DNA from: Liolophura sinensis
Taxonomy: Eukaryota > Mollusca > Polyplacophora > Chitonida > Chitonidae
Length of the DNA: 64,000 nucleotides
Direction: 5' to 3'
Assembly: GCF_032854445.1 (NCBI RefSeq)
Contig: NC_088295.1
Span: forward strand, 54,291,249-54,355,248
This document shows, piece after piece, positions 9,001 through 58,608 of the stretch; within the stretch, counting starts at the first letter, position 1; every line of letters begins with the position of its first letter. Under the pieces are notes generated by a model. The model was not told the DNA's origin. It was given only the letters and a program-made list of their open reading frames with translations, and did not search any database. The position numbers were made by a program, and so were the translations under genes.

Positions 9001-12000
9001 TGATTTTTCACTGTCTAACCACCTGTCTGTATCACAGTTCATACACCAGGGCAATTGCATGTAGTGGGTGAAAAATGCCATGAAAGTACTGGTGATGTAG
9101 TGTAGATCTAGCTAGCATCATGCGAAAGTTTGTCTGTAATGTCCTCTTCGGGTGAGTTCAGTTTCCATTATTTGTCACCATATTTATGAGGTTATAGTAC
9201 TATGCTGGTGTTAAATTAAATTAATTGGATACTCTGAATTCCTTGTGGTACAGATTTTATGTTATGTTATAGAATCCTGCCTCATACGTGTGTGAGGCAC
9301 CTAGAGAAGAGTGGGGGGTTTATTCTGTCCACTTCATTTTCCTCCAACCATAATCTTGACCGTTGTCATATATAACCAGTCAAAGAAACAAGATTTCAGA
9401 AAATGTTTCGAAAGTGCTTTGTTGCATAATACAAGTTGCATGTCATATCCCGTAGATACTTTAATAATTAATATGTCAATATGTTTATGTGTCTAATGAT
9501 TTGATATTTCCCTGAGTTACTTAGTATTGCTGTTTCATCATTGATGTGTTTAAGGACTATACATGTAACTGTCATGGCCTGGTGCATTAGGCTAGTCCGC
9601 TTAGAAACACTCAGCTGACACTCAACCAGATACACATCTACCTGATAAACCTCTTTTACAAAGACACATACAGCTGAACCAATGGGAGCAGTGGGGACAA
9701 GAGCTGGCAGTGTCATTGGTCACTGGCTGATCATCTGCGTTAGAACTTATGAGTGCGGAGATAGTCTTAATGTGTCATTTTAGATATTTAATATTTGTCA
9801 CGTTCAGTTTGGGTTAGTTCAAGTTTATATAAATGGAAGGAATTCATCAAGGAAAGACTTATGGGCAAGATTAAGTATTCATCAGGGGACCCTGGATGGC
9901 TCAGGTGGTTCAGATACTCCAACTGTCATGTCCTTAATCATCGAGATTGTGTGTTAAAATTCAGTTTTTGCTGGTTCGGCTGTGGTTATCAGGATCCTAG
10001 TTAAGGGCAGTAGTATGCTCCAGGCACTTTGGTTTCCTTTACCCATAAACCTGAAAAATTCTTAAATTCAGAATGAAACACTTTCATTGATAATAATCAA
10101 TCACTCGCCTATTCACCAGATAGTCTTGCAAGGTTTTCAGTGTGGAGTCAGCCAATGTCAGCTCAGTAATGACCTGCATATATCCACCTGTTGCTGGTTT
10201 CTAATTTTTATCGACATCTTGAGTGGCAGAACTAGTGGATATGGGCTGGAGAAAACTCAAATTTGCTTTATAAATTGAAATGAATGTTTGATAACTTGTG
10301 TCTTGGGTATTCCTGGGTATTCAGTTGGAAGTCACACATCTCTTATATTTTTGAATGAATAAAAATTACTCTCTGCGAATATGGCTAATCGTTATGTGTG
10401 TGCCAATTCTTTGGCATTCGCTAGACACACAGTAATGCAGGACAATGTCTCTTTGTCTATAGTGGTGGATTGATGCCTTTCTTTGGCTTGGGTTTGCTGT
10501 CTTGGAGTGCCTCCTAGTTTGTAACTGTGACGGTCAAGTGGTATAAATTCCCAAAAATGTTAGGTGAAAGGACTAGATGTGGGTCTTCATATCCCACCCA
10601 TTCCAACCATTACAAGCTACTTCAGTGTTTTCAGCTGTTCAGTATATCCATAGTTAAATTTGCAACATTTAAAGAAAAAGTTAAAATTAGATGAAGCTCT
10701 ACTAGTTTACTTACTTTAATGGTTGTCATGTTGTTGTCAGGTGGCGGACTGGGATCGTAGTCCTGGAAACCTTCCAACATTTCCATCACTGGACCCCCCA
10801 GAGACGGGTTCCCATCCAAGTACACTCGCAGAGGAGAAGCCTGAGGACTGGAACAAGCAATTCATGGATATGGGCTTACCATCCTTCAGATCCAGCTATC
10901 TGTTCCTCACCAGGATCAAGCTGGATGTGATACACGAGTGCCTAAGGCTGCGTCTAGAACAGAGGCCAAAGTCAGATCCCTCATTTCTCAGTATAAGACA
11001 GGTAAGCAGCAGACCCCTCAGTTCTGTGTATAAAACAAGTAAGCAACACACCCCTCATTTCTCAGTATATTTATTTATTTATTTGACTGGTGTTTTACGC
11101 TGTACTCAACAATATTTCACTTATACGACGGCGGCCAGCATTATGGTGGGAGGAAACCAGGCAGAGCGCGGGGGAAACCCACTACCATCCACAGGCTGCT
11201 CACAGACCTTCCCATGTACCATGGAAGGTCTGTGAGCTTTATGGAAAAAGAAAAAATATATGCAAGAAAATCCTTAGTGGCACACACATTTAAATAATAA
11301 ATGTTTATTATTAAGCCTGTTTAAATAATACAGCCACCTTAATCATTATGACTGTGCATTTGTTCTGTTACAGTTAATTCATGAATGTAAGGAGGTTCTG
11401 AAGGGAGCTGTCAATGTGAAGCAGTATTATCAGCAGATGGTCTCAGCAGTCCTCTGGGATGATGAAAATGCAGAGGAAAACTTTGCATCCAGTCTTGAGC
11501 AGTTTGACACGGATATGAGGAAAATGCTTGAGGTGACCAGCAAACTCAGAGATGCTTGGATAAAATTTACCTTCGACATGTTACTTTTATACTATTTTAC
11601 CAGTAGTATTTAAACTTTCTTTATATGTAACGGCGATTACATATTTCTCCCAGTCTCACTTCATAATGAAGTTGATCCTGAAACCACGACCAAAAATAAT
11701 GGAATACTATGCCCCATTTTCAAAAGTGTATTTGTTGAGTCTGTATTTGAGTGTGACTAACGTTCATCACAGCTACATGGAGTGTGTCCCATGATTTTGT
11801 TTGCGAGGTACTTTCACTTCACTCGTCATCACTAAACTGGCTCTCATGTTGTTTCTGGGTGAATACTCTAATCAAGATGATTAGGCAGATGGTTGGCAGT
11901 GAGGTGCAATGACCCAAGAGCCTCTCACCAATTTGGTGGCTGTGAGGTCAAGTCCAGGTCATGCTGGCTTCTTCTCCGGCTCTAGGTGGGAGGTCTTGCA

Positions 12001-15000
12001 ACAACCTGTGGATGGTTGTTGGTTTCCCTTGGTTTCTGCCCTATTCCTCCCACCATAATACTGGCCGCCGTTGTGTAAGTGAAGTGTTCTTGAGTATAGT
12101 ATAAAACACCAATCAAATAAATAAATAATTATAAATGGGCATGTGTAGGCATTTATTTGAAATATGCTATTGAAATAAGCTGAATTCATGTGCAGCCTAT
12201 GACAAATGAAAGACAAATTCATGATGCTTTGTGCCTTGTTTTCTCCAGATTTACTTCTCATACCTACAAAATTGGATGTACAGCCTTCAAAATCTACCCG
12301 AGGCATCTCGTAGTTTAAAGAACGCACTGGAGATAGAGTGGACTTTTACCAAGAAGATTTGTCCTCATGTAGGGGGTGGAGAGGCAGAGGCTGGGAAAAA
12401 GTTCAGGTTAGTTTGCTTGCTTATTTGTTTGCTAGAGGTTTCAGTCTCACCTATTCTCACTCATTATTTCAGTTATATCACAGCTCTGCTTCAGCCTTTT
12501 TGCATGTTTGCAGGGTATTTATCTGAGCATATTCTGAAGGCCAATCCATCCAAAGTAGTTTTGTCTCCAAAATCAAATTGAAAATGTGCATAAATTGCAC
12601 TGAAAGATGTTCTTTTATTTGTGAAAAGGTTGAAAAATGGGCTCATCTTCAATGTATGGAATTCTTGGCAAGATAATGATAGTAATATTGAGTACTGCCT
12701 GTTGTCATACTTGTACCATACACAGTACAGATTTGGTGTGCACATTTAGTTATGTTATGCAAAAATACATTATTGTCACGTCCCCTACTCACTCATAATA
12801 TCTCCGAGTACAAAATACTACCAAGCGTATTAGGTGCTCAAGTGAACAGGTAAAATAGAAAATGAGCGCTACTTAGACTTCGCCACTCAACACTCTTAAC
12901 ATGGTAAAGATATGGGAAAAAATGAAATATAGTAACCCTGCTGGAGCAAAATAACCACAAAAATCTCTGTTTGGACACACTGTTTCACCTTTCTATCTAA
13001 TCATTTATAAGTCATGTATATCATCATTAATACCTCATGTATATCACACTCTTTATCTGGTAGTGACATAATGTATGTTATGTTTCCTGTTTCTGCTTAG
13101 TACCCTGGCCAGCAGTTTGTTGAGCTCCATATCAGACTTCCTGGAGCAGGGCATGGACGACTGCACAGCCCATCTGTTTGACATGACCCTGGGAGATAGT
13201 GATGACCGAGAAGACGGGGAGGAGGATGGTGATGGGGAAGATCAGCTAGATGAAGATGATCAGCTAGATGAAGAGGGGGACACCAGGGATGAGGCAGAAA
13301 GCCTAATGCCCCATCGCAGACCAGGGCTCTCCCTGGATGTGTCCCAGAGGCTGGGTGAGCATACCTCTGACTACCTGATGGAGGAGGACCAGCAGGCAGA
13401 CCACCGACACAGGGACTTCAGGTCAGTTGTACTCAGACGTGATTTGTTAGTTTGAATCCCGTAAATCTGGTTCTTGCTGTGACTCCCACAAACTCAAACC
13501 ATAGAAATCTTTTCTGATTCTCACAACAAAAATCATACTCACAGTCAAACAGGTATCTTTATTACAACACTGGTTTGAGAAGTATAACATTTAAACATTG
13601 AATAGAAATTTGAATTTATTTGTTCTTGCTATTTATTATGTGCTTGATTTTGCAGGCATTCCATTCAGCAGACCTGTCGGGACTTCAAAAACTTATTTCA
13701 TGAGGCCAGACAGAGGGCTTCCAAGGCACTGGGATTTGCTAAAATGCTGAGAAAGGTAAAGTTTTGAGAAACTGATATTTGATTTAAAAATGGGTGTGAT
13801 TTGATTGTCCAGGTGAGTGATCATTTAATTTTTTTTTTTTTTTTTTTTTTTTTTTGAAGTTTCATGTCTTCAGCATATTGAAACAGCAGACAGGTTTATG
13901 GATGGAAGAAACTGGGCGGAATTTATTAAATGTCACTTGTTCTTCACCAGTTTTTGATGTCCAGCTGGATTCATATGCTTAATATCAGGGCTTGTCTCAA
14001 ATGTGGGAGAGTTTGTCAGTAACTTGCCAAAGTTTGGTGGTTTACCTCACGAATCTTAGGGTTTCCTTCACTGATAAAACTGACTGCCATCGGATAAGAG
14101 TAAAGTATGAGAGAAAAAAATAGATAATTCAAAGGCTAGTCGTCTGAGTGTAATGTCTTAGAGTTGTGTTATATCTATTTATTTGCTGCTGTTTAGATCT
14201 AAATTGCAGTTATGAGATTTTTACAAATTACTGTTCACTTAACTTAGGTAATAATAGAAAGAGTGTTTCAAAATTTACTTAAGCTGTGCTTTAAGGGCAC
14301 ACTTTTATTTGTTTTTTTTTTGTATGTTTGTTATTATTTGTTTGGTAGGATCTGGAGATTGCTGCTGACTTTAATATTGCTGTGACTACAAAAAATCTGC
14401 TAGAAAAACTGAAAGAAACCAGCCATGTGCGGGTAAGTCTGTCATGAAATATTTCTCCTACAATTCAGTGTTAATTACTCTGACATATAAGACATGATAC
14501 AAGGCAATGGGAGAGAAGAAAAGGTGGATTTTGAAAAGGTATTATCTAATCACACATGTTGATCCTGTATACTCAGTCAAGGTTACATGATACCTGTACC
14601 GTTCATTGCTTTTATAGTAGAATACCTTTTCCCCACAGTTACTCAAATCCAAGTTGAATGGTGCGTTGTTTTTTTCTGCAATGTATGAGAGATACATTAT
14701 AACTTTGCCCTGTAGACGTCATCAGAACGTGTTGACTGCTTATTGTCATATGACAGTGATTGAGTATGACGTTAAACCCCAAGCATACATACATACAGGT
14801 ACGTCACCAGACAGCTGGAAATGAACTGTAGACAACACAGCTTAGGCCTGCATGACTTCAAGTGAGAGAGTTTCTTCACTGGCAGTATATTCACAGGTTC
14901 CATTGTAAATTTCTTGTAGAATCCTTATACATTTTGTTTTAATACATGCATAACATCTTTCTTCTGTGAAGATATTTCATAAGCTAGGTTGCCCGGTTTA

Positions 15001-18000: not shown

Positions 18001-21000
18001 GAAGATAAAATTATTCTGTGTGCTTTTTTAAAAAAAGTAAAGAGTCTGCATGGAGCTATGTTGCAAATATTATCGAAAATGAGATTAATGGAGTTTGTCA
18101 TTGGCTCTGATTAGCCTCACTGTTCTTACGAACCCAGTTTTAACAGACCAAGAGAACTGCCCAGTAAGAAAGCCCTGAAGTAAATTTAGTAGGAAACCGA
18201 TGTTTGGTCAGTCATTTTTGGTCACAAACTGCAGGCTGTTAATGGCTGTATCTGGCCTAAATGCTGCTGCAAACTTACTTCTACTTGCATGATTGTTGTA
18301 AAGAGAAGCACATCACATCCGTAAACAGTATCCTTTTAATAGAATGCCATATATTCTGTTGTCAGTATCACAAGGAGGTGACTCGCCTTGTGACAGGAGA
18401 TGCTAGGCATCGACTTGGACGAGCTCTTATAGACTTTGCTCAAGAGTGGATGAAGTTTGTCTCTCAGAAGTGCGAGCGTGGGCGAGGAATGAGACCCAGG
18501 TGGGTGAGGATTGGAGGGGGACGAAACTTTTGTAGAGGAGAACTGAATAGTGGGGAGTTTGTGAATGCAACTTTTTTCCGTCTTTTCGAAAAAAATTCAA
18601 GCAACTTTATATTTCAGCTTTTGAAATAACAGTGTTTATTTTACATGCTAAATCCACCTTGTCTGAGAGCTGTCTTATTCATTTTCCTTTGTCTGTTGTA
18701 TTCTGAAAGATCTTAAAAACTCTCAGAGATAGTAACTGCTGATTCAGTCCTCAGATTCAATTAACTGTAAATTCATCTACTTCTTAATAAGAAATGTGCA
18801 GTTTGAGCCTGTCTTCTTCTGATGCATCCCTGACCTCACTTGTAATACTGCTGTTGAGTTGAGATCATTTGGATTTTATTGTTTGACATTGGTTATTGTT
18901 AATTCGTTAAGATACATGCATATTGAGCAGTTTTTATCCTAGTTGGAATAACTATGTTGTCAGATGGGCGAGCCAGGGCTTGGATTTCCTCACTGTGGCA
19001 TGTGAACCCAAGACAATGACATGTCTGACAGATGCAGAGTTCCAGGTAATATTAAGCAGTAGTCAACTTCTAAAATAAAAAGAACACACGTATCAGATGG
19101 GGAGAAGGGAAGACAGTGTTACTATTTGTGTTCATTGTAATGCTTACTTCCAAATATATTTCTACTTAAAAAATCATCAAAAGTATGAAATTACAATTTT
19201 CCAGCAGGATATCATCTCAAGTTCCAAGCAAACCTCAAAACACCTTTCTAAAATCAGGAATCAGAAAAAATTGACAAGTTTGTCATGGACTAAATTTATG
19301 GTCATTTAGTGTAGGTGTAATTTTCACTTATATGACCACATTACCACGGTGCAATCATTTAATGAAGCTATACTGGAGATTTGGGGTAAAAAAACTTCGT
19401 TATCTGCTTATCTAATTAAATTTTCTCTATTTACCAAGAATAGCTCAAAATTATTGCCTTTTGGTAAATATCAGACTCATATCTGTACTATTTATGGTAT
19501 TAAAATATCAGGCTCATATCTGCACTATTCATAGTTTTAAAATATCAGACTCATATCTGCACTGTTCATAGTAATAAAATATCAGACTCGTACCTGTACT
19601 ATTCATAGTATTAAAATGATTCTGAAGTTTGAAATAGTTATAAAGCAACCAGTTTGACAGATTTTAGGAATTTTATTCCCGTTTTTGAATGGTAACATGA
19701 GGAGAGAGCAATGATACAATTAATTATATTATAAGGTAATTATGTGAGCTATTCTAGAATAACAGCGGGAATTTGATCTTAATAACAGCATTTTTAAAAT
19801 AATCATTTATGCAGGATAAAATGATTGTCAAATCTTAAGAAAGGGGACTTTAAAATTTAGTAATCAAATCCGACTTTTTCTTGTAACTGGTGATCAGTGG
19901 ATCTGTGCCTTATGTGGGTATATGTGTATGGCTAAAACCATAGGTACACACGTGTGATATGTCATTCTCAGGTTTTGAAGGGAATACTTTTTTGCCAGCT
20001 AGGAAGGATATTTAACATATTTGTTATAAAGCAGTGGAACTTGTTTGTGTAGATATGCATGTGGGATCATCGTGAACAAAATCAGAATATTGTTCCAGAA
20101 CTTGAAGCAGAGTATCAATGACTGCATAACCCATGTGATAGGAAGCGCAGAGAGAATTGTCCCGTGGAGCCCTACCCAGGGTAAGTCATGTTCATATGGC
20201 AAATCATGTTCATATGGCAAGTCATGTTCAGATGGCAAGTCATGTTCATATGGCAAATCATGTTCAGATGGCAAGTCATGTTCATATGGCAAATCATGTT
20301 CAGATGGCAAGTCATGTTCATATGGCAAATCATGTTCAGATGGCAAGTCATGTTCATATGGCAAATCATGTTCAGATGACAAGTCATGTTCAGATGGCAA
20401 GTCATGTTCAGATGGCAAGTCATGTTTAACTAGCAAGTCATGTTCATGTGGCAAGTCATGTTCAGATGGCAAGTCATGTTTAAATGACAAGTCATGTTAA
20501 ATGGCAAATCATGTTCATATGGCAAATCATGTTTAAATGGCAAATCATGTTCATGTGGCAAAGCATGTTTATCTGGCATGTCCTCTTCAGTGGGCTGTCA
20601 GGTACTAAGATTAAGTGTTCACTTGCTTAATCTATGGTATGGCTTACATCTTCACAGAATTAAAATTTCTATTTATGCATAAACCAAACACTGTAATTAA
20701 AATGCTGAAATTTGTGAATTCCTGAAGTTAAAAAAGATTGTCAAATGACCTCCCATGTGTGTTGTTTGTAGGTTTCAAGGTGGGCCAGGATGTTCAGAAG
20801 GTGAACCGTATTTTCTCCTGGCCAGCCGAATCCCCCAAAGTCTCACGATCCTTTTCCCACTTAAGTGAACCAACACCTACCCCGAAACGCAGCCCTGAAA
20901 CGGCACCAGTAGAATCCGGTATGTCCAAAAAGTGGCAACCAAAGTTTAATTATTTGATTAATTCAGTTGCAGTAATGTTCCAAGATTAAATAACTTATTG

Positions 21001-24000
21001 AGATCAAAATTTCCAAGTATTGTTAAATATACAGTTTTGAATGCTGTATTCCAGGCTTTTAAAAAAGTACTTTCAGAAGTACGTACATTACAAAGGTTCT
21101 AAAATGATATTTTTGATGCCAACACTCAAGTTTTTATGTTAATTAATCAGATTAAATTCAGTTAAATTTAAAAAAAACTTTCTTATGTGATCCTATAAGG
21201 TGAATGAATCGATCAGAATCAAGCAGAATGTGTCACTTGAAAGAAGCTAAACTTTAGGTAAAATACAGTATTTGCGATGCATTGAGGTTGATGTGAAGAT
21301 CGGCAAAACAGGCTGCTAAAGTGTTGCCATTTCTGTCATATCTGATTGTGATCAGGCAGTTTTGAACAGTTTTATCTCCTCGGGACCTCTCTGGGTTACA
21401 TGGTTAAAACGTTGGTTTGCTCCGATTACCAGGCCCTTGACCAATGATCTATTTATTTATTTATTTATTTTATTGGTGTATTACACCGTACTCAAGAATA
21501 TTTCGCTTATATGAGACAGCCAGCATTATAGTAGGAGGTAACCCACAACCATCCACAGGTTGCTGAATGACCTTCACACATGCAGCCTTAGAGGAGGCCA
21601 GTATGAGGCGACCGCATTGGTGAGAGGCTCCAGGGCCATTATGCTGCACTAGGGGGCTAACCAACTGAGCCATGGAGGCCACTCCCTTGACCAATGAGGG
21701 CACATTTGAATTCAGCTGATGGTGTTTGGGCTGCGGCTTTTGGTCATGAAGTTTGTCAGGTACCCGGCTAAGGGCGCTGGTTTACTCAGACACTCTGGTT
21801 TCCTCCACCTGAATGCATCATATTGAAGCTTTTTGACCAGATGTTAAACAGTTGTTTTATCAGTCAATCAATCAATCATTCAGCTCGTATCAGACACTAT
21901 GGATTGAAGTCTGTTGTTGATAAGATATTTTTTTTTATTTATTGATAAATTTGATTTATGATTTATACCGCACCAAAAAATTTACATAATAACAGAGAAT
22001 ATTTCACTTGTATTATTTGCTTGCATTTATGGGCAGAGGAGAAACCTGCCAGTTCTCCTGATGCCAAGCATGCAAAAACTGGGTAGAGACGTCTTGGAAG
22101 AATGGGTCAGTGCATGTTGCAGCCCTGCGAATTGATTTTGTTTGATTTATTCCCATCTGTTGGTAAACAGGAGCTGAAGCAGTAAGAAGAATATCAGAAA
22201 ATGGGTTTTGACCCTGCAGTTGTATATATCCTGTTGATTGTATGTGAATCCTCAGCCTTTGTGGATTTTGTGAATCTACTGTAAATAGCGGATTGTACAT
22301 CTTTCATCACAGACCGCATATTAGGCAGCGAAATCTGTTTGTCTTACAATGAACAGATTTAAACTTGCTATTTAATTTTCTAAATGATAGATTGCAGTGA
22401 TAGTACTACTTTTGATTGGGTAGGCTTACAAATATTTTGCAGTGCATTATGAGAACTGTGTTGTGATTTGGTTAATGATCTCACCTGAAAGCTGTGTATA
22501 CGCACATGAGAAAACTTAACAGCCAGCTAAGAAATAATGTCATGCCGATTTTTGAACGTCTCTTGAACTCTCTGGTTATGATGTGGGTTTTGGACCAAGC
22601 TATTCCATATTCTTCACCAAGGGCTGATTTCTTAAAATAACAGTTCTCTCTTTATATAATAGCTCCATGTAGATGGCCATGTTTCAGTTTTGTACATGTG
22701 TACTTCACAATTGGTGGTTGCTTCATCTAGTTTTGTATATAAGATGACATCAAATCAACTGAATTCCAACTTTATCTTTTTTTTCATTTTGGTAGATTGT
22801 TGATCATAATAACATGAATCGTGGATTAAAAACCTTCGAATTTATTCTGGACGACATTCCCGTGCCATTACTAACATAACAAGTCATTAACTTGAAGAAG
22901 GTGTTAAGTAAGTACACTGAAATGTCATGGAGAATAAATTGAGAAGTTTGCATTGCTCATTTGCATATAAATGTCTTATCACTCTTCCTCTCATTCTGTA
23001 CCACAAAGTTCCTTCTTTTAAAGGAGAAGAAAACATAAAAATGATGCCAAAATCAGATGAAACAGTGTCAAAACTTATTTGCAAATATGACCTTTAATAT
23101 CTTTTTGGATTTTTTTTTTTCAAGAGAATGGTGGGTATTTGGGACTAACTTTTGGTATTTATCGTTGTTGCATAATAATATCCTACATAAGGACGTGATG
23201 CTTATCTACTAAATTTATTTGAATGTCAATTTGTTGTTTATGTCGAAACATATGTATTTAACCTAAATTACGATAATATTTATGAACATATTACAAATAT
23301 AAATGTGATCCAAATTGAGGTTTAATACATTTGTTAGCTGAAAAGAACAAATTCTAGTGCAAAAATATTTATTGAATCTGTGTTACATCCTCATTTATGA
23401 CGTTATTAAACAAAGACTATAAATACTGAAAGGTGGTCCCAAATACCCACCATACAAAAATTATTTTCAAGTGTCTTTTTCTCCTTGAGGAAAAGTCGGA
23501 AAAAATATTGAAGACCACAATTAGGAATAACTTTTTGCACTCTTTCATCTGAACTTTGTCATTTTTATGTTTTCTGCACCTTTAAAATGCCTGATCACTG
23601 TTCGTGTCCTCATTCCTATCCACATAGCTCCATTATTTCAAATGTCTGATCAGTGTTCATCTCCTCATTCCAAACCACATAGCGTCTTCATTTAAATTGA
23701 CCTATCACTGTTCCATCTCCGCATTCCAAACCACACACACATGTAGCTTCTTCATTTAAAATGTCTGATCACTGTTCCATCTCCTCATTCCCATCCACAT
23801 AGCTCCTTTATTTCAAATGTCTGATCAGTGTTCGTCTCCTGACGGTGTAACAGGTGTTAAGCGAGCCAACATGTCTGAGAGTTTGCAGGAGGCGGTCAGC
23901 ATTCACGACAGCGAAGAAGGAGGGCTTGTAATGGATATCAGTCATTCTCCATTTCGCTACCACAAACCCAGAGGTCAGTTTTCTGCGTTTCAAAATCAAC

Positions 24001-30000: not shown

Positions 30001-33000
30001 CCCAGGAAAAGGTACTACCAGATATGTAGACTTGCATTTTTCAAAACTGTATTTTGATGCAATTAATGTTTGTGTAATTAATGAACCATGGTTAAATTTC
30101 AGATGAAATTCCAGCCAAATGACCATCAGGCATTCAAGGGAATTGCTGATGAAATAAAGAACTTTGAAGGAATCGAACATAAAAATTTGGTCCGCTATTA
30201 TGGCGTAGAAGTACATAAGGTAATATTATACATAGTTGTGAGAAATGTTACGGGATGCAAATGTTAACAGGTAATAATAATTTGGGTCTGGAATATACCA
30301 TGGAAGGGTTTGATACTCTGTTACTTTCAGCAGACATGAGATTTAAATGTCTCCTTCACCTGAGTCTGGCAAATCTGGAATGAAATCACTGAATGACAGT
30401 GTGTTAAAAAAATCAGTCATGAGAAATGAGAAAAGTTGAGATTTACTTGATTCACAGCTAGGAAAGTAGGAACAACTTGATTAAGTGCACACCCACTTAT
30501 AACATCTTTACTTGTACATTAATTGCAGTGTATTTTTCTGGTTTGGAGTCTTTACTTCACAAACAAACAAACAAAAATTGTGAAAAACATGCCTTGATTT
30601 CCAGGATTAGGACTGGTCATCTTGAAAGCTTTCAAATTATTGGCTGTGTAGAAAAAAATGTAGGCATCAGTTTAAAGAATAGGTATTGAACTTTCGAATG
30701 ATTGGTAGAATTGAATTTCTACATGTAGTATATTTTGTCCATTGCAAAAAATAATAAAATAAATTTTATATATTTTGTATGTTTATATATGTGCGAAGTG
30801 CCAAAAGCGTAGTAATCGGAGAAAGATATCCTTTGTTGTCCGCTTCGCCGTAAATCAACATAAATCATGTTTCTTTATTCAGGTTACTTTTCCAATGCAA
30901 TTTCCAATGAATTTAAAGTTAAAGCCGGATGGGTTTACTCTGGGCATTTCAATTTTCTCCACCCTCGAAACTCATAGCCGATATACATGCGAGTTAGTGG
31001 TCCTTCTATTTTTGAATTGAAATAATCAGGACTACATTGTATATGCACATACTGTATATAAGTATTTGTTGTTTTTTTTGTGTGTGTTGAAAGGATGAGT
31101 TGTTGATATTCATGGAGTACTGTGACAGAGGAACCATTGAGGATGCTGCAAAGTTGGGGTTACCAGAGCACATGATCAGGAAGTACACGCGGGACATTCT
31201 TGTGGCCATACACACTTTACATGAACATGGTATTGTTCATAGAGATATTAAAGGTAAGCTAAACAGTGTTCACAGTGATATCAGAGGCACACTAAAACTT
31301 GTTCACTGATATATGAAAGGTAAGCTAAAGTTTGTTCACTTAGATATCAAGGGTTGGCCAAAACATTGTTCACAAGAGATATCAGATGTAAGTTAAAAAT
31401 TGTTCACTGAGATATCAAAGGTAGTGCAAATATAGTTCACTGAGATAAAAAAAAAAACATAAGTTGATCATTGCTTATGGAAGTATCAGAAGTAAACCAA
31501 ACATTGTTCACTGAGATGTCAAAGGGTAGCTAATTTGATGTGATTCAAGTGTTGTTGATTGAGATAACAAGGGTACACGTAAGTTATTAATCTTCAGCTC
31601 CGTTGTGTTGACGAAGGTAACAAAGCTAAGCTGATTATCATTTAACATTTCGGATGTATGAGGTAACAAAGTTAGGCTAATCACTGTATTTATCTTAAAG
31701 TTTTGCCTGCAAGAATACACTTTCAGAGCACAGAAAGGCCTTAAAAATGATACTTTTGATGCCAACGACAATGAATCAGACTTCAGGAAAAACTCTTAAA
31801 AGTGGCCTCCAAAAGTGGATGAATCGCTAAGGTTTAAGCATAATGTGTCAGTTGAAAAAAAATAAACTCCTGGTGAAATTTAATATCTTGAAAACATTGC
31901 TGTTGAATAATTATTTTAACACCAACACAGCTTGGTCACTGTGAGTTCAAGTCCAGCCCATGCTGGCTCCTCTCCGGCCGTATGTGGGAAGGTCTGTCAG
32001 CAACCTGCGGATGGTCGTGGGTTTCCCCCGGGCTGTGCCCGGTTTCCACCCACCATAATGCCGGCCACCGTCGTATAAGTGAAATATTCTTGAGTACGGC
32101 GTAAAACACCAATCAAATAAATAAATAAACCAACACGGCTTAGTGTACAGATCTGAAAGCAGTAATTGCACTGTCATCATTCTGAACTACAGTATAGTAC
32201 ATGCAGGTCTATGGTATTCCAGTTGCTTTGTTCTGTGTTTCAGGAGCAAATATATTTCTGACATCGGATGGGTGCTTGAAACTGGGTGACTTTGGGTGTT
32301 CTGTTCGATTAAAGAGCCACACAACGATGCCTGGGGAAGTAAACGCACTTGTGGGAACTACAGGTAATGGGTCTGACCTCAAGTTTGTGTAAACCAAACC
32401 AAACATTCCAACCTAATTAACCAGTCGCTGTTGCTGGTTAACAAACATTTACATTTTACCACATATATGGAAAATATGCAATGACCATGCACTCAACAGT
32501 GACTTTGCGTAAAGTTTTTCTCTTGTAAACAGAACTAAAAGTAACTTGTACCCACTAATCAGTTTATTTTCAATGGTGAATGTCAAAGCTTTACACAAGA
32601 TGTATTTTCAGTGACATGAACTGAAGAGTTAGACCTACATTCAGTTCGCCAGCAACCTGTGGATGGTCGTGGGTTTCCTGCAGATTCTGCCTGGTTTCCT
32701 CTCATAATAATACTGGCTGCAGTTGTATAAGTTAAATATGGAATATGGCATAAAACAAAAATCGTACGATAGATAAATAAATAGTTCCCTTATGACATGA
32801 ATAGAGCTGCATGTACATATGAATAATGTATGTATATATACAAATAGTGAGAAAATTGGGGGCAGAGGTGGTTAGCATGCCAGAGCGGCACAATAACGAA
32901 GGAGACTGTCACTGTGAGTTCAAGTCCAGCTCGTGCTGGCTTCCTCTCCAGCCATACATGGGAAGGTCTTCCAGCAACCTGTGGAAGGTTGTGGGTTTCC

Positions 33001-35154
33001 TCTGGACTCTGCCCGTTTTCTTCCCACCATAATGCTGGCCGTTGTCATGTGGTGAAATATTCACGGTGTGAAATATCAATCAAATGATTAAAACAAAAAC
33101 AAAGTGAGAATATTCTTGGTTATGACACTAAACACCAATCACTGAACACTGATAAGTAAATAAATACAAATAGTGAAATCTCCCTGTTAAGTCTGTGACA
33201 TAATTTTGTTTTGCCTTCAGCCTACATGGCACCTGAGGTGATAGCTCGTAGTGGTCAGGAAGGTCACGGGAGGGCAGCGGACATCTGGAGCTTAGGCTGT
33301 GTTGTCTTGGAGATGGTCACTGGAAAGGTAAGGCAGAAAACTTCAATAGCAAATGTTGACAGGTGTTATCAGATATATATTACAGAAAGACTTTTTTGTT
33401 AAGTGTAGATGGCCTCAGTGTTAATATACACAAATATATAAATTTTTGATCTAGTGCACTGAAGTGGTAGCCCCTGTGAGACTGAAGAGATAGCCCCTGT
33501 GAGACTGAAGTGATAGCCCCTGTGATACTGAAGTGGTAGCCCCTGTGAGACTGAAGTGGTGGCCCACGTGAGACTGTAGTGGTGGCCCCTGTGATACTGA
33601 AGAGATAGCCCCTGTGATACTGAAAAGATAGCCCCTGTGAGTCTGAAGTGGTGGCCCATGTGAGACCGTAGCGGTGGCCCCTGTGAGACTGAAGTGGTAG
33701 CCCCTGTGATACTGAAGAGATAGCCCCTGTGAGACTGAAGTGGTAACCCCTGTGAGACTGAAGTGGTGGCCCATGTGAGACTGTATGGGTGGCCCCTATG
33801 AGACTGAAGTGGTAGCCCCTGTGAGACTGAAGTGGTGGCCCATGTGAGACTGTATGGGCGGCCCCTATGAGACTGAAGTGGTAGCCCCTGTGAGACTGAA
33901 GTGGTGGCCCATGTGAGACTGTATGGGCGGCCCCTATGAGACTGAAGAGATAGCCCCTGTGAGACTGAAGTGGTGGCCCATGTGAGACTGTAGTGGTGAC
34001 CCCTGTAAGACTGTAGTGGTAACCCCTGTGAGACTGAAGTAGTAGCCCCTGTGAGACTGAAGTGGTGGCGCATGTGAGACTGTAGTGGTGGCCCTTGTGA
34101 GACTGAAGAGATAGCCCCTGTGAGACTGAAATGGTGGCCCATGTGAGACTGTAGTGGTGGCCCATGTGAGACTGTAGTGGTGGCCCCTGTGAGACTGAAG
34201 TGATAGCCCCTGTGAGACTGAAGTGGTGGCCCATGTGAGACTGAAGTGGCGAGACTGAAATTTTAATTTCTTTTCCCTTACAGCGACCATGGCATGAGTT
34301 TGAGAACAACTACCAGATCATGTTTAAGGTGGGAATGGGCTGTACACCTGTCATTCCTGAAAGCCTGAGTGCCGAGGGTAAGGAATTCCTGGAGCATTGT
34401 TTTAGAACAGACCCCACAGAAAGAGCTACGGCCAGTGACCTACAGACACTTCTCTTCACCATGGTAAGATTCTACCAGAAAGGGTGCATTTTTAGAAGTA
34501 AGGAAAGGTTATGAAGTGTTACATTTGCTACTGTACAAACGTACCTACACTGTACCCCTCAAACAATTCTGAAAAAGGCCAATGGAACTCTCAGAAATGG
34601 AAAATGAGTAACTTACCCAGTGATGATCCTATACACCAGTTCACAGTTTCGCATTTGAAACATAAATAAAGCCACATGGTGCTGTTCGACATTACAAAAA
34701 GCATGCTTTTTTTGCATGCGCATTAGCGTAGCCAGTTCTAGCTTTTTTTTTTTGGCATGCTGTGAGTTTGTGTACCTACTTTACATTATAAAGGGACACT
34801 TGGCATGCTTACTTGACTGTATAAGGGGACACTGTAAGCTTGTGTATTCTGATCAGCTGCAGTGCTGAGGGATTCTGCTTCATGCAGCCTTATGTTTCCA
34901 TGTAGCATTAGACAGGTGCAATGCTGTAAACTAAGTGTCAGCATTGACTCTGCCAGTAGAAGTGACCTTGTGATGTATTGGCAGTGTATAGACCTAATCA
35001 ATGAATGAATGATTCATGGGGTTTAGCACCCCATTTGTCAGTATTTTAGCGATCGTGATGACCTGTGATCAATGAACAATGATACATATTCAGTGAGCTA
35101 AATCTCTGATTTCTGTTTTTGTAGGTCTATGAAGAAGTGGAGGATGCGGTATGA
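5956..35154 (+). CDS. MAP3K4: Mitogen-activated protein kinase kinase kinase 4 (MEKK4/MTK1), 24 coding exons
   Basis: Ser/Thr kinase of the stress-MAPK cascade. Family knowledge: GADD45-type proteins release its autoinhibition, and it phosphorylates MKK3/6 and MKK4/7 to drive p38 and JNK. Coding exons: 5956-6029, 6936-8840, 10741-11001, 11374-11532, 12249-12406, 13101-13421, 13656-13755, 14349-14432, 15221-15487, 15840-15989, 17209-17370, 18366-18499, 18964-19045, 20099-20180, 20772-20918, 23854-23973, 28605-28802, 29596-29666, 30103-30219, 31094-31253, 32244-32363, 33221-33327, 34284-34463, 35125-35154. All junction phases chain, giving about 1,728 residues (human about 1,600). Kinase landmarks: GEGQFGKV about 1468-1475, lysine in MAMK about 1490, HRDIKG about 1579, DFG about 1599, APE about 1627. 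Blocks typical of MEKK4 outside the kinase include [48 protein letters not shown] and YNFGFEYHKEV. Oddities: two +1 frame breaks in exon 2 and a GC donor after exon 17. Confidence 0.95.
6936..8840 (+). CDS. MAP3K4: MAP3K4 exon 2, N-terminal regulatory half (two frame breaks)
   Basis: Large exon entered at TTTCAG and left at GCTGAG|GTGCTG, phase 0. Family landmarks in order: [12 protein letters not shown] near the start, [63 protein letters not shown]. The reading frame changes by one base twice. The first change lies between about 7384 and 7512, the second between about 7878 and 7957. Each interval begins at a five-base homopolymer (G 7384-7388; C 7878-7882). Removing one base from each restores one frame and makes the exon fit the flanking phases exactly. 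Confidence 0.85.
8896..9104. mobile_element. Short inverted-repeat element (MITE-like)
   Basis: The ends are imperfect inverted repeats. The left has ATCACCAGAATTTCATGGAA followed by TTTTTCACCAACTA. The right has TAGTGGGTGAAAAATGCCAT followed by GAAAGTACTGGTGAT. A relative of one arm recurs at 17.5 kb. It has no coding capacity. Confidence 0.6.
9270..9370 (+). mobile_element. SINE family 3 fragment
   Basis: Holds only the 3' body block (GAGGCACCTAGAGAAGAGTG, a TTTATTCTGTCCACTTC-like segment, and CATAATCTTGACCGTTGTCA). Confidence 0.4.
9886..10076 (+). mobile_element. SINE family 3 copy
   Basis: The head GGACCCTGGATGGCTCAGGT looks like a tRNA A box. A B-box-like GTGTTAAAATTCAG follows, then GGTTCGGCTGTGGTTATCAG and a GGCACTTTGGTTTCCTTTAC-like block. 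Matches the copies near 21.4 and 40.2 kb. Confidence 0.55.
10741..11001 (+). CDS. MAP3K4: MAP3K4 exon 3
   Basis: Starts after TTGTCAG and ends CAG|GTAAGC, phase 0 on both sides. Encodes a MEKK4-type block with [13 protein letters not shown] and SLDPPETG. The last 24 bases and the donor belong to a 37-bp tandem repeat that continues into the intron. Confidence 0.9.
10978..11070. repeat. 37-bp tandem repeat spanning exon 3 end and its splice donor
   Basis: About 2.5 copies, starting at 10978, 11015 and 11052. Copy 1 is the exon 3 end plus GTAAGCAGCAGA. Copy 2 is the diverged equivalent with AAACAAGTAAGC in place of the donor. Copy 3 is again CCCTCATTTCTCAGTAT and runs into a SINE tail. Confidence 0.85.
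11069..11222 (-). mobile_element. SINE family 1 copy (reverse)
   Basis: Begins with the complement of the (AAAT)n tail, then the complement of the family core (TTCTTGAGTACGGCGTAAAA region), then GGCGGCCAGCATTATGGTGG. Its outer end forms a near-perfect hairpin at about 11199-11236 (CTCACAGACCTTCCC / GGAAGGTCTGTGAG). Confidence 0.85.
11374..11532 (+). CDS. MAP3K4: MAP3K4 exon 4
   Basis: Starts after TGTTACAG with [11 protein letters not shown], the counterpart of a conserved MEKK4 block, then VKQYYQQM. Ends KMLE|GTGACC, phase 0. Confidence 0.88.
11884..12131 (+). mobile_element. SINE family 1 copy, near full length
   Basis: Has the leader AAGAGCCTCTCACCAATTTGG, the B-box-like GTGAGGTCAAGTCC, the body CCAACAACCTGTGGATGG-like, the core TTCTTGAGTATAGTATAAAA, and an AATAAATAAATAA tail. 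Confidence 0.85.
12249..12406 (+). CDS. MAP3K4: MAP3K4 exon 5
   Basis: Enters after TTCTCCAG and encodes [20 protein letters not shown] and [11 protein letters not shown], matching the MEKK4 central region. Ends AG|GTTAGT, phase 2. Confidence 0.9.
13101..13421 (+). CDS. MAP3K4: MAP3K4 exon 6 with acidic stretch
   Basis: Enters after CTGCTTAG, ends AG|GTCAGT (phase 2 both sides). Begins [18 protein letters not shown] like the family. It then carries a long Asp/Glu-rich segment with a repeated DQLDED unit, longer than in the human protein as I know it. This may account for part of the extra length. Confidence 0.88.
13656..13755 (+). CDS. MAP3K4: MAP3K4 exon 7
   Basis: Encodes [20 protein letters not shown], then MLRK; this is one of the most conserved MEKK4 blocks. 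Ends AAG|GTAAAG, phase 0. Confidence 0.93.
13829..13856. repeat. Poly-T run
   Basis: Uninterrupted run of about 27 T in the intron after exon 7; prone to length change and sequencing error. Confidence 0.8.
14349..14432 (+). CDS. MAP3K4: MAP3K4 exon 8
   Basis: Continues the conserved block with [20 protein letters not shown]. Ends CGG|GTAAGT, phase 0. Confidence 0.92.
14750..14801 (+). mobile_element. SINE family 2 tail fragment
   Basis: Only the 3' end is present: TATGACGTTAAACCCCAAGC followed by ATACATACATAC. Confidence 0.6.
14986..15084 (+). mobile_element. SINE family 1, 3' fragment
   Basis: Contains TGCCCGGTTTACTCGTACCA, CATAATGCTGGCTGCTGTCG, the core TTCTTGAGCGCAGCATATCA and an AATAAATAAATAA tail. 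Confidence 0.75.
15221..15487 (+). CDS. MAP3K4: MAP3K4 exon 9
   Basis: After TTGTACAG reads [20 protein letters not shown] then [13 protein letters not shown], aligning with the family's FVPDTLAEEKSIILQLLN region. Ends GAG|GTATGC, phase 0. Confidence 0.9.
15840..15989 (+). CDS. MAP3K4: MAP3K4 exon 10
   Basis: Encodes [20 protein letters not shown] and [18 protein letters not shown], both recognisable in MEKK4. Ends AAG|GTAGGC, phase 0. Confidence 0.92.
16160..16335. repeat. About 50-bp tandem repeat, 3-4 copies
   Basis: Units begin with a CCTGGTGATG-like motif near 16169, 16221, 16271 and 16321 and contain TTCCACCTGGTTCTTGCTGG-like sequence. It lies in an intron and contains no gene. Confidence 0.7.
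16663..17067 (+). mobile_element. SINE family 2, near full length with internal duplication
   Basis: The tRNA-like head CTAGCACAGTTAGTAGAGTG and B-box-like CCAGGGTCAATCCTGAGTC are present, followed by the family body and the tail ACGTTAAACACCAAGCACTC. A segment of about 55 bp near the 3' end (ATTACATACACTCTAATGAT onward) is duplicated in tandem. Confidence 0.85.
17209..17370 (+). CDS. MAP3K4: MAP3K4 exon 11
   Basis: Starts [20 protein letters not shown] and ends [18 protein letters not shown]; both segments match family blocks (ISNAIDRVD and YREAMIQGYNFGFE in human). Phase 0. Confidence 0.92.
17488..17612. mobile_element. Partial relative of the MITE at 8.9 kb
   Basis: Carries TGATTAGTTGGTGAAAAATT and GAAATTGAAGGGG, the complement of the left arm of the 8.9-kb element, and an inverted partner near 17515-17545 (AAGTCACCAAATCATTTTTC). 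Confidence 0.45.
18366..18499 (+). CDS. MAP3K4: MAP3K4 exon 12
   Basis: [20 protein letters not shown] then [15 protein letters not shown]. The donor is AG|GTGGGT in phase 2; joining to exon 13 gives RPRWASQG, as in the family. Confidence 0.92.
18964..19045 (+). CDS. MAP3K4: MAP3K4 exon 13
   Basis: Enters after TTGTCAG and completes Arg, then [20 protein letters not shown]. Ends TTCCAG|GTAATA, phase 0. Confidence 0.9.
19466..19617. repeat. 38-bp tandem repeat, about 4 copies
   Basis: The unit is AAATATCAGACTCATATCTG followed by CACTATTCATAGTATTA, with copies starting near 19468, 19503, 19541 and 19578. Intronic. Confidence 0.8.
20099..20180 (+). CDS. MAP3K4: MAP3K4 exon 14
   Basis: Acceptor TGTTCCAG gives [20 protein letters not shown], the counterpart of the family's LMNECIGHVIG. 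Ends CAGG|GTAAGT, phase 1. An upstream TGTGTAG acceptor at 20052 puts the wrong phase on the upstream exon, so 20099 is preferred. The donor is the first unit of an 18-bp minisatellite. Confidence 0.88.
20179..20582. repeat. 18-bp minisatellite starting at the exon 14 splice donor
   Basis: About 22 units of GGCAAGTCATGTTCAGAT with variants (GGCAAATCATGTTCATAT, GTTTAAATGGCAA). The first unit reads GGGTAAGTCATGTTCATAT, which contains the exon 14 donor. The middle alternates AAGTC/AGAT and AAATC/ATAT units, giving a 36-bp higher-order period. As the unit is 18 bp, exon 14's frame stays open through the array to a stop at 20498-20500. Confidence 0.95.
20772..20918 (+). CDS. MAP3K4: MAP3K4 exon 15
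   Basis: Enters after TTTGTAG in phase 1 and encodes [18 protein letters not shown] then a Ser/Pro-rich linker ([18 protein letters not shown]). Ends CCG|GTATGT, phase 1. Linker regions between the central domain and the kinase are poorly conserved. Confidence 0.82.
21045..21265. repeat. Dispersed intronic repeat, copy A
   Basis: Shares TTTTGATGCCAAC, GAATCGATCAGAATCAAGCA and AATGTGTCACTTGAAAGAA-like blocks, in the same order, with 31.74-31.87 kb. Family unknown. Confidence 0.5.
21384..21886 (+). mobile_element. SINE family 3 copy split by a SINE family 1 insertion
   Basis: The head CTGGGTTACATGGTTAAAAC lies before 21447. The body (TTTGGGCTGCGGCTTTTGGT, AAGTTTGTCAGGTACCCGGC, CAGACACTCTGGTTTCCTCC) and an AATCAATCAATCA tail lie after 21684. 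The 14-bp CCCTTGACCAATGA occurs on both sides of the inserted SINE. Confidence 0.75.
21448..21683 (-). mobile_element. SINE family 1 copy (reverse), full length, with target-site duplication
   Basis: Read on the - strand it has a tRNA-like head (CCATGGCTCAGTTGGTTAGC), the CTCTCACCAATGCGGTCGCC leader, a body, the TTCTTGAGTACGGTGTAATA core and an AAATAAATAAATA tail. It is flanked by perfect 14-bp direct repeats at 21434-21447 and 21684-21697. Confidence 0.9.
23017..23586. mobile_element. Foldback/MITE element, copy 1
   Basis: About 570 bp with inverted arms of roughly 130 bp. The left begins TTTAAAGGAGAAGAAAACAT and runs to ATGGTGGGTATTTGGGAC. The right starts GTCCCAAATACCCACCAT and ends TTTATGTTTTCTGCACCTTT. 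The centre is AT-rich without coding. A second copy lies at 58.7 kb. Confidence 0.8.
23587..23850. repeat. About 56-62-bp tandem repeat reaching the exon 16 acceptor
   Basis: Five units, each starting AATGTCTGATCA(C/G)TGTTC and containing CTCCTCATTCC and a CACATAGCTCC-like block. They start near 23586, 23639, 23695, 23758 and 23814. The last unit runs into the acceptor GTGTAACAG of exon 16. Confidence 0.85.
23854..23973 (+). CDS. MAP3K4: MAP3K4 exon 16
   Basis: Enters after GTAACAG in phase 1 and encodes [20 protein letters not shown], then [13 protein letters not shown]. Ends AGAG|GTCAGT, phase 1. It is a linker region; the support is its phase fit and open composition rather than strong homology. 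Confidence 0.7.
24101..25401. mobile_element. Candidate 1.3-kb terminal-inverted-repeat element
   Basis: The left end reads TCCATGGGCCGGACATGATA, then TTGGTACCACCTGAGGTGGC and CAAACC. The right end reads GGTTTGGCCACCCTTTGAGG, then TACCAGTATG, and GGGCCTTGGCCCATGGA. Over about 45-55 bp the ends are imperfect inverted repeats (GGTTTGGCCACC and GGCCCATGGA match exactly). The inside holds two protein-like open stretches (about 24291-24440 and 24998-25201) that I do not recognise. No target-site duplication is certain. Confidence 0.55.
25402..28186. other. Intron 16 remainder, nothing recognised
   Basis: AT-rich intron sequence. A TCTGTCTGTCAGTCTGTTG-like stretch near 25885 resembles a repeat also seen near 47.35 kb. 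I found no exon with acceptor, donor and a phase 1-1 frame that I would trust. Confidence 0.5.
28187..28554. mobile_element. MITE with inverted ends
   Basis: The left end CAGGGGCAAATTTTACAATG pairs with the right end GCTTTGTAAAATTTGCCCCAG. Inner inverted matches include CCATGGTAACAA-like (left) and GCCATGGTAACTC (right), and CAGATATTCATAT versus ACAGATATCTCAG. No coding. Confidence 0.75.
28605..28802 (+). CDS. MAP3K4: MAP3K4 exon 17, kinase domain start, GC donor
   Basis: Enters after TTCTACAG in phase 1. Encodes [20 protein letters not shown] then [15 protein letters not shown], the family's LRKVTFKWQRGNKIG. The exon must end ATAG|GCGAGT for the frame to give [10 protein letters not shown] with exon 18. 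No in-phase GT donor works here, so this is read as a GC-AG intron. Confidence 0.88.
28803..28808 (+). promoter_or_regulatory. Non-canonical GC splice donor
   Basis: Sequence AG|GCGAGT right after the Gly codon start. The later GT at 28807 (GGCGA|GTAGGA) would shift the frame against exon 18. GC donors are a known minor class, usually AG|GCAAGT. Confidence 0.75.
29336..29580 (+). mobile_element. SINE family 1 copy, about 15 bp before exon 18
   Basis: Shows GGAGCTTCTCACCAATGCGG, the B-box-like GTGAGTTCAAGTCC, CAGCAACCTGCGGATGGTTG, CCATAATGCTGGCCATTGTC, TTCTTGAGTATGGCGTAAAA and an AATAAAT tail. Its end nearly touches the polypyrimidine tract of the exon 18 acceptor (TCTTCTCTTGCAG). Confidence 0.88.
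29596..29666 (+). CDS. MAP3K4: MAP3K4 exon 18, glycine loop and catalytic lysine
   Basis: Encodes [20 protein letters not shown], then AMKE; the Lys of AMK is the expected ATP-anchoring lysine. Enters after CTTGCAG, leaves GAG|GTGAGT, phase 0. Confidence 0.95.
30103..30219 (+). CDS. MAP3K4: MAP3K4 exon 19
   Basis: [20 protein letters not shown] then [17 protein letters not shown]: kinase C-helix region with its Glu (ADEIKNFEG) and strand 4. Ends AAG|GTAATA, phase 0. Confidence 0.95.
31094..31253 (+). CDS. MAP3K4: MAP3K4 exon 20, hinge to catalytic loop
   Basis: Starts [20 protein letters not shown] (hinge) and ends [13 protein letters not shown] with the HRD catalytic loop. Donor AAAG|GTAAGC, phase 1. 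The last bases and the donor are the first unit of a 33-bp array. Confidence 0.95.
31235..31560. repeat. 33-bp tandem array copying the HRDIKG coding end and its donor
   Basis: Units start with GTTCA at 31235 (inside exon 20), 31268, 31301, 31334, 31368, 31402 and 31435. A degraded unit near 31466 and a later one at 31506 follow. A unit reads GTTCACTGAGATATCAAAGG then TAAGCTAAA. At least three keep a GTAAGY-like donor remnant. Units 1-3 stay in the exon 20 frame. Confidence 0.9.
31740..31875. repeat. Dispersed intronic repeat, copy B
   Basis: Same block order as copy A near 21.1 kb: AAAATGATACTTTTGATGCC, GTGGATGAATCGCTAAGG and CATAATGTGTCAGTTGAAA. Confidence 0.5.
31930..32129 (+). mobile_element. 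SINE family 1 copy
   Basis: Starts CTTGGTCACTGTGAGTTCAA and carries the full body, TTCTTGAGTACGGCGTAAAA and AATAAATAAATAA. One of the least diverged copies here. Confidence 0.92.
32244..32363 (+). CDS. MAP3K4: MAP3K4 exon 21, DFG segment
   Basis: [20 protein letters not shown] then [12 protein letters not shown]: magnesium-binding DFG and activation loop. Phase 1 both ends (CAG|GA and ACAG|GTAATG). Confidence 0.95.
32644..32784 (+). mobile_element. SINE family 1, 3' half, diverged
   Basis: Contains CAGCAACCTGTGGATGGTCG, TCTGCCTGGTTTCCTCTCAT and a decayed core (GGAATATGGCATAAAAC). Confidence 0.75.
32864..33092 (+). mobile_element. SINE family 1 copy with variant head
   Basis: The head GAGGTGGTTAGCATGCCAGA is tRNA-like. 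It continues CACTGTGAGTTCAAGTCCAG, CAGCAACCTGTGGAAGGTTG and CCATAATGCTGGCCGTTGTC. The 3' end is degraded. Confidence 0.8.
33221..33327 (+). CDS. MAP3K4: MAP3K4 exon 22, APE segment
   Basis: [20 protein letters not shown] then [15 protein letters not shown]. Enters after GCCTTCAG in phase 1, ends AAG|GTAAGG in phase 0. Confidence 0.96.
33458..34258. repeat. 23-bp minisatellite, about 35 copies
   Basis: Unit ACTGAAGTGGTAGCCCCTGT then GAG, with recurring variants (GAAGAGATAG, GTAGTGGTGG, CCCATGTGAG, GTATGGGCGG). It fills most of the last large intron before exon 23. Because 23 is not a multiple of 3 and the unit has no stop on the - strand, all three reverse frames stay open. Confidence 0.97.
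34284..34463 (+). CDS. MAP3K4: MAP3K4 exon 23, kinase C-lobe
   Basis: [19 protein letters not shown] then [17 protein letters not shown] and [12 protein letters not shown]. Ends ATG|GTAAGA, phase 0. Confidence 0.96.
35125..35154 (+). CDS. MAP3K4: MAP3K4 exon 24, C-terminus and stop
   Basis: Nine codons VYEEVEDAV then TGA, entered after TTTTTGTAG. The human protein ends in a similarly short acidic tail, so length and position fit. Confidence 0.85.
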   Translation, partial: VYEEVEDAV

Positions 35155-36455: not shown

Positions 36456-36503
36456 TGGTGTTGTACAGGTAAGAAGCTGTTATCCAGTGCCCATGGTATA
36501 CTG

Positions 36504-36730: not shown

Positions 36731-36795
36731 ATCTTTATTACCCTTATTTATGATCAGTGTGAAACTGAATACGTTTTTTTTTTTTATAATTATTT

Positions 36796-38728: not shown

Positions 38729-38845
38729 CATTGTCAAGGCCTGATTGGCTTTACCAAGAACAGACCTCATTGTCAAGGCCTGAATGATTGGCTGTACCAA
38801 GAACAGACCTCATTTGTCAAGGCCTGATTGGCTGTACCAAGAACT
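38729..38845. repeat. About 42-bp tandem repeat, 3 copies
   Basis: Unit CATTGTCAAGGCCTGATTGG then CTGTACCAAGAACAGACCT. Confidence 0.85.
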
Positions 38846-40159: not shown

Positions 40160-40352
40160 CAATAGATGGCTCAAATGGCTGAAACACTGGCTTGCTACAA
40201 CTATCAGGCCTTTCAGCAGTGTGGTCTAGTGTTCAAATCCAACTCTTGCTATTTTGGTTCGGTTTATGCCAAGAGGTTTGTCTGGTACGTGACAAAGGTC
40301 AACGGTTTACTCTGTTTTCCAGCCATTAACTTGCTATCATATCAGTGAAAAA
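40160..40352 (+). mobile_element. SINE family 3 copy
   Basis: Head AATAGATGGCTCAAATGGCT (A-box-like), B-box-like TAGTGTTCAAATCCAACTC, then TTTTGGTTCGGTTTATGCC and GTCAACGGTTTACTCTGTTT. Confidence 0.6.
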
Positions 40353-41160
40353 TGACAGAGCACCACGTCATGCACCATTCCAATTAAAAGAAAATAATAG
40401 TGTTTCAACATACCACAGGTATACTCTTCACATTTTATACTTGTTAGAGGATTTAGGTTTGCCTGCTATTAGCCTGGGATACAAAGTCCTGGATGTATGT
40501 CAGAGAGTTGGTTTTATGGGCAAAATCATCTTGCATCCAGAGGGTTATCTCCTGATGTAAGGCCTGGAAGGTTCAAAGAAAATTATAATACTGAACCAAG
40601 TATCGATACTTTGAATGAGTCGTGTTGGAGTTGCCACAGCTGAGTAGACCTACCCGGTACTCTACTTTGTGAAACTTACAAATCGAACAGGAAAAAGATT
40701 TAAAGGAAGCTGTTGAGAAGTCAGGAATCATGTAAAACTTTAAAAACAAATTAGTTTAATTATAATTAGTTATGTTGGTGGGGGGAGGGGGGCAACACGC
40801 AGTTTATCCTGTGTTTCATAACATTAGTCACCAGAAATCACGTAAAGCACATCTGTGACTATTTGAAAGGCCACAGCTGTATTAAATTCCAACCAGATTT
40901 TGGACTGTGTATAAATCTAACTACTAAGACACCGTCGTGATATGAAAGAATTCACCTTGAAAGCAAATAAATCACGGTACAGTCAAATCGGTATATGCCA
41001 TTTGTACCAACTGACTTACAACAGGCAAATCCTCGTAAATGTACGAGTGTAGATCTGGCTGCTGCTCAATGATATCCGTCTTCCATGTGGAGGGGAGTTG
41101 TCCAACTCTATTCGGCGCTAAGCGATCCTATTTTAGTAAGAGCCCCACGTTGACTGTTGG

Positions 41161-58608
<17,448 letters not shown>

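Follow-up and report, generated by a model that had tools for sequence, protein, structure and literature searches.

Tandem arrays that copy exon ends together with their 5′ splice donors in the chiton Liolophura sinensis

Tandem arrays in the sampled introns of Liolophura sinensis enter exons at donors far more often than at acceptors. The 250 introns hold 60 arrays, of which 11 span a donor, 1 spans an acceptor and 48 span neither junction, a ratio of donor- to acceptor-spanning arrays of 11:1 (binomial P = 0.006). The anatomy of such arrays is already known from single human loci (ABCA7, CBS). The favored reading, to which a probability of about 0.55 is given, is that these are junction-spanning minisatellites: random tandem duplications that are tolerated at donors, since splicing takes the first one, but weeded out where an exon start is copied.

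Sampled Introns and Counting Rules

The window, i.e., the whole stretch of 64,000 nucleotides under analysis (C1:54291249-54355248 in a 609-Mb genome of 632 contigs), harbors a MAP3K4 gene (MEKK4_N and Pkinase profile matches) and a class I mannosidase gene (MAN1A; GH47 matches at window positions 47735, 52990, 57372, and 58357). Another protein kinase match lies on the same strand about 6 kb past the window (C1:54361513-54361704). A blind sample of 30 stretches of 6 to 10 kb, labeled by L-numbers (L001 etc.), was picked via myosin, kinase, GH47, and dynein domain matches, by the density of matched exons and with the sequence unseen. Introns were counted between confident exons, giving 118 in dynein, 75 in myosin, 25 in GH47 or kinase genes and 32 in the window, the last figure being close to the total of 33 introns in the earlier note. 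Arrays were accepted from TRF at a score of at least 90 and a period of at least 10; 49 of them belong to the blind part and 11 to the window. Their share of bases differs between gene families, with 21% in the myosin stretches, 13% in the GH47/kinase stretches, 4.5% in the dynein stretches, and 5% in the window.

Exons were predicted with a simple home-made gene finder and counted if they scored at least 7 or overlapped a domain match. It picked up 68 of the 70 domain matches in the first 20 stretches and all 53 of those in the following 10. Six lower-scoring window exons (18964, 20099, 25068, 49139, 51690, and 52963) were added by hand, none of which founds any of the three donor-spanning arrays of the window. 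One predicted exon that lies within an array was excluded (L008 5543-6939), and six 15-nt predictions in the L006 array, with scores below 7, were left uncounted. The array at L017 9097-9901 is likewise uncounted, its intron not being bounded; it has a 109-bp unit, runs from about 103 nt before the end of a GH47 exon to the end of the stretch and is likely donor-spanning. At least two exon ends were misplaced by the finder, namely window 53177 and that of L029, which was set at 726 although a better site (score 8.1 vs. 1.1), also within the array, lies at 687; the counts, copy scores, and frame test for L029 used 726.

Arrays in the Window

The earlier note had described, in four introns of the window, arrays whose unit is the end of the preceding exon plus its own donor. 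This holds for three of them, with units of 37 bp (exon end 11001), 33 bp (31253), and 104/98 bp (56233), in each of which the founding unit comprises the exon end and its donor (Table 1). A copy search in each array found 1, 4, and 7 further copies of exon end plus donor, respectively. In the 37-bp array, the second donor-like site stands at +37 (AAACAA/GTAAGC, slash at the splice junction) and scores 8.2 vs. 11.8 for the authentic donor. The 33-bp array includes four donor-like copies, one of them equal in strength to the authentic site. The seven donor copies of the MAN1A array comprise six that score like the authentic GTGAGT. TRF places this array at 56225-56906 (98 bp, 5.9 copies for 56329-56905), but the copied part of the exon, as read by eye, spans about 64 nt (56170-56233) and is thus longer than the TRF start implies.

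The fourth case, at exon end 20180, is not of this kind. Its 18-bp array begins at +3 of the donor, the unit does not contain the exon end, the copies read GGCAAGT or GGCAAAT with GC in place of GT, and the copy search in the exon's own intron found 0 copies of the exon end plus GT donor. A fifth array, absent from the earlier note, is a mirror case: its 55-bp units carry the acceptor-like CACATAG and adjoin an acceptor. The 23-bp array listed for comparison is intronic, separated from the donor by 131 bp and from the acceptor by 35 bp.

Table 1. Positions of the arrays and their founding exons (window coordinates)
Feature	Position	Strand	Basis
MAP3K4 exon, founder of the 37-bp array	10741..11001	+	MEKK4_N match, continuing into the next exons
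37-bp array, 2.6 copies, across the donor at 11002	10973..11069	+	TRF, sequence
18-bp array, 22.3 copies	20183..20582	+	TRF, sequence, copy search
55-bp array, 4.5 copies, adjoining the acceptor of the exon at 23854	23581..23840	+	TRF, sequence
MAP3K4 kinase exon, ends in HRDIK, founder of the 33-bp array	31094..31253	+	Pkinase match; junction gapless in MAP3K5
33-bp array, 6.5 copies, 72% matches, across the donor at 31254	31232..31447	+	TRF, sequence
23-bp array, 34.4 copies, comparison, touches neither junction	33458..34249	+	TRF
MAN1A (GH47) exon, last ~64 nt copied	56129..56233	+	junction gapless vs. mannosidase IA; sequence
104/98-bp array across the donor at 56234	56170..56906	+	TRF, sequence; left end by eye

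That the arrays arose as independent events, as had been proposed, agrees with their differing units and with a genome search with one of them, in which the 136-bp junction stretch of exon 3 matched only itself (simple repeats and very common words are skipped by this search). Local tandem duplication is therefore the simplest origin. For the exon-3 stretch, the dispersed occurrence of the same sequence that marks introners and transposons was not found.

Other repeats are present in the window. Open frames at 194-1712 resemble the remains of a LINE reverse transcriptase. A short element apparently recurs in introns (11069-11230, 11950-12110, 53126-53177, and elsewhere); it is the probable cause of the faulty prediction of exon 52963-53177. 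This exon also gave a donor match, a 29-nt identical copy 985 bp into the intron, which was judged a dispersed-repeat artefact.

Donor and Acceptor Ends Compared

Outside the window, TRF arrays span the donor at 8 of the 218 blind introns (L001, L005, L006, L007 twice, L026, L028, and L029). The addition of L015 by alignment brings the introns with copies of exon end plus donor to 9 of 218 (4%). The class, defined by a unit that holds the exon's own donor and reaches into the intron, thus includes nine blind junctions besides window 11001, 31253, and 56233, and excludes 20180. When the founding unit is placed at random within its own intron, 3.23 arrays are expected at each end; for the window and sampled stretches together, the 11 donor-spanning arrays exceed this number (P = 5e-4), whichever TRF period is chosen (smallest, P = 5e-5; best, 5e-4; largest, 1e-3). 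The blind part alone gives 8 donor-spanning arrays vs. 2.67 expected (P = 0.006 with the best period, 0.001 with the smallest, and 0.010 with the largest) and 1 acceptor-spanning array. The earlier note had thought a shared cause possible; a shared tendency across the genome is thereby supported, as is an excess of arrays at donors.

Arrays that narrowly miss a junction are distributed differently: six begin 3-41 bp past a donor, and another six stop 11-36 bp short of an acceptor. Because these are equal at both ends, the asymmetry concerns arrays that copy exon sequence. One of the six near-misses at donors, that of L015, does copy the exon end.

The comparison was also made independently of TRF, by aligning the last 30 exonic nucleotides to the exon's own downstream intron and the first 30 to the upstream intron. 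At a score of at least 14, 11 of the 250 introns show a match at the donor and 2 at the acceptor, compared with 0.11 and 0.16 when introns are swapped. One of the 11 is the match of window exon 52963-53177 that was judged an artefact. L001 scores 13.0 and so falls outside these 11, the donor at L015 1381 was found by alignment while TRF placed the array at +32, and L026, with 5 exonic bases in its array, was detected by TRF only. The two acceptor matches (L001 exon 7930-8017 and L029 exon 8978-9076) were rejected as arrays, the copy being exon-like with its own AG. These exon-like copies lie 909 and 226 bp upstream, respectively, and are possibly alternative duplicated exons. The clearest acceptor-side counterpart is the 32-bp array at L003 1646-3006 (42.9 copies), which spans the acceptor before 2998 and reaches into a myosin exon by 8-9 nt; the acceptor-like TTTGTAG/GTTTGAG occurs in the units inspected.

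Probable Use of the First Donor

Predicted exons were joined and compared with known proteins at nine of the twelve junctions, i.e., all except those of L001, L026, and L029. Seven of the nine are gapless when the upstream-most donor is used: L007 1174 and 3684 against myosin VIIa, L006 4520 against myosin Ic, L028 2249 against dynein heavy chain 6, L015 1381 against EDEM1, window 56233, and window 31253, where a one-residue gap follows a few residues further. At window 11001, the evidence is a profile match only, MEKK4_N running across the junction with 157 residues vs. 152 profile positions, and the L005 junction has a two-residue gap nearby. As the alignments run through the junction, the exon-proximal first donor gives the conserved protein. 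Judging from this protein homology, the first donor appears to be the one used.

Origin and Maintenance of the Arrays

The favored reading begins with random short tandem duplications, which slippage or unequal exchange would produce. Duplication across a donor would leave the exon unchanged if the first-transcribed donor is used, and only the intron would grow; such a duplication would be tolerated and free to expand. Duplication across an acceptor would set a copied acceptor and exon start upstream, where they would be met first at the risk of a longer exon, and would therefore be removed more often. Tolerance at donors together with filtering at acceptors predicts the asymmetry of 11:1, of which selection would then be the maker. 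Several observations run contrary to these steps. An acceptor-spanning array of about 43 copies does exist (L003), arrays that narrowly miss a junction are no rarer at acceptors than at donors, and for human CBS a 68-bp duplication that takes in an intron-exon junction is described as tolerated because splicing favors the more distal site (PMC2630376). Contrary to the first-donor rule, a donor one unit downstream is reported to be used in some ABCA7 transcripts (PMC5954066). Furthermore, 11 arrays against 3.2 under uniform placement means that tolerance alone is not enough for the roughly threefold excess, which suggests either that mutation is additionally biased toward exon ends or that arrays survive longer there.

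This excess is an argument for the strongest alternative, that duplication is targeted to 5′ splice sites by transcription or splicing (pausing, R-loops, strand breaks) and selection is minor. The excess is robust to the choice of unit, and genome-wide motif counts point in the same direction. Single CAGGTGAGT sites number 10,120 vs. 2,743 for the reversed control, and since they are 3.7 times the control, a per-locus test is fairer than counts of triples. Among the first 100 listed sites of each kind, CAGGTGAGT occurs in more than one copy within 150 bp at 11 of 66 loci, and the reversed 9-mer at 5 of 94 (P = 0.03). Triples of CAGGTGAGT give 673 matches, compared with 28 for the reversed control, 75 for another shuffle and 146 for that shuffle's reverse; among the matches listed, which cover C1:1-49.74 Mb, these amount by eye to 14 loci vs. 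1 and 3. Triples of CAGGTAAGT give 264 vs. 158 matches and, among those listed (C1 to C3:23.3 Mb), 15 vs. 6 loci by eye. Of 24 sense CAGGTRAGT sites in the sampled DNA, 13 coincide with the predicted end of an exon. The motif counts include sites other than exon ends and are weaker evidence, only supporting. Several results oppose targeting. At 300 bp the per-locus test, again on the first 100 listed sites each, gives 10 of 59 vs. 6 of 91 (P = 0.059), and most arrays (48 of 60) span neither junction. The exonic share of the unit is evenly spread, as random breakpoints predict (mean 0.50, KS P = 0.52, 10 arrays), which argues against a fixed break site. Taken together, targeting is unlikely.

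A second alternative holds that donor copies are kept by selection, as spare donors, for regulated intron length or for alternative transcripts. In 12 arrays, 69 of 99 copies equal or exceed their own authentic donor in score (L006, 11/12; L007 at 1174, 16/18, and at 3684, 1/17; L015, 20/20; L005, 5/8; L001, 4/5; L026, 3/4; L028, 1/1; window 56233, 6/7; window 31253, 1/4; window 11001, 0/1; and L029, 1/2, measured from the misplaced donor at 726). GT is missed once in 162 copy positions vs. 8.9 expected (P = 0.011; nine arrays), which plain neutral decay does not predict and which leaves room for some function. The idea of selection for spare donors, raised in the earlier note, draws its slender support from this conservation. 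The same nine arrays do not show the nine-base donor to be significantly better conserved than other parts of the unit (P = 0.18), and in the array at L007 3684 the copies are weakened (mean 7.6 vs. 12.5 for the authentic donor), hinting at selection on decoys. Nor does the reading frame favor spare donors. The next donor copy evaluated, which is the first detected (at +87 in L026 and +66 at window 31253), would either break the reading frame or bring in a stop in all 12 cases, so that the in-frame, stop-free extension of a functional tandem donor was found in none. The +33 copy at window 31253, outside these 12, is a weak GC site (score -0.9) that would be in-frame without a stop. Unit lengths are multiples of three in 3 of 12 arrays, as by chance. 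In the 48 interior arrays, donor motifs did not differ significantly between sense and antisense (P = 0.13). Retention of copies by selection is accordingly given still less weight than targeting.

Chance or artefact has even less to recommend it. Coincidence in an array-rich genome, or errors in the assembly or exon models, might be suspected given the high array content of the myosin stretches, the small counts, window cases chosen by eye and a gene finder with known misplacements. However, the blind sample and the TRF-free test both replicate the pattern, and the seven junctions that are gapless in known proteins already disfavor such an explanation, which is highly improbable. Finally, the arrays are most improbable as traces of intron birth through tandem genomic duplication of an exon segment that contains AGGT, for although AG/GT stands beside exon sequence in the units, the acceptors lie 94-1774 bp past the ends of the 11 donor-spanning arrays rather than in a second AGGT copy, and the introns hold other sequence also.

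Relation to Known Systems

The earlier note knew of no named phenomenon of this kind, but single cases have been published. The VNTR in intron 18 of human ABCA7 is described as a 25-bp array flanking exon 18, in which the first GT is the exon's own donor and the donor of the next unit serves as a cryptic site that leaves 25 bp in the transcript, out of frame (PMC5954066). As in the arrays described here, the exon's own donor is part of a unit that reaches into the intron. In contrast, the ABCA7 array starts at the GT, whereas most of the present arrays copy exonic bases too. ABCA7 is, as far as its description goes, one locus in one species with length variation and use in RNA demonstrated, while the present data are the sequence of one assembly. 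The CBS gene has a 31-bp VNTR at the exon 13-intron 13 border, c.1444_1467+7(16_21), with 16-21 copies (PMC2630376, PMC1395315). By this notation, the unit comprises 24 exonic and 7 intronic bases and has the same anatomy as the arrays described here. CBS is again a single locus, with variation between people known, compared with arrays from one assembly.

A third case concerns an interferon-induced gene that is said to be IFI6/6-16. According to its title, the report by Turri, Cuin and Porter (1995; cited in PMC2572611, PMC2915984) describes a minisatellite giving multiple splice donors in an interferon-induced transcript; the likeness, several donors in one transcript, is that of the title. 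Intron gain by tandem genomic duplication, as outlined in PMC3443670 and PMC2891723, involves duplication of an AG/GT segment with the acceptor in the second copy. That process creates an intron, whereas here an existing intron is extended and the acceptor remains outside the array. TERT intron 4 (PMC4459975) and the Amoebophrya introners (PMC7789003) were set aside as comparisons. A search of one open-licence library turned up no account of such arrays as a widespread class within a single genome, or of their asymmetry.

Implications

In humans, links of such arrays with disease risk or enzyme activity have been reported (ABCA7, PMC5954066; CBS, by the title of a reference). For annotators they carry a warning, as the gene finder used here put the L029 donor one copy too far downstream. 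Work on how the spliceosome decides between several equal 5′ splice sites usually relies on engineered constructs. With about 4% of the sampled introns holding natural rows of similar donors, in units of about 30 to 125 bp, many test cases are available in this genome. The asymmetry between donors and acceptors is a readable trace of the duplications that genes tolerate. A bolder proposal, doubtful though somewhat more credible than targeting with selection minor, is that this lineage has a duplication bias to 5′ splice sites, leaving about one intron in 25 with near-identical donors among which the spliceosome chooses by transcription order. If both the bias and the order-of-transcription choice are true, the arrays, through their asymmetry, would record that rule across the genome.
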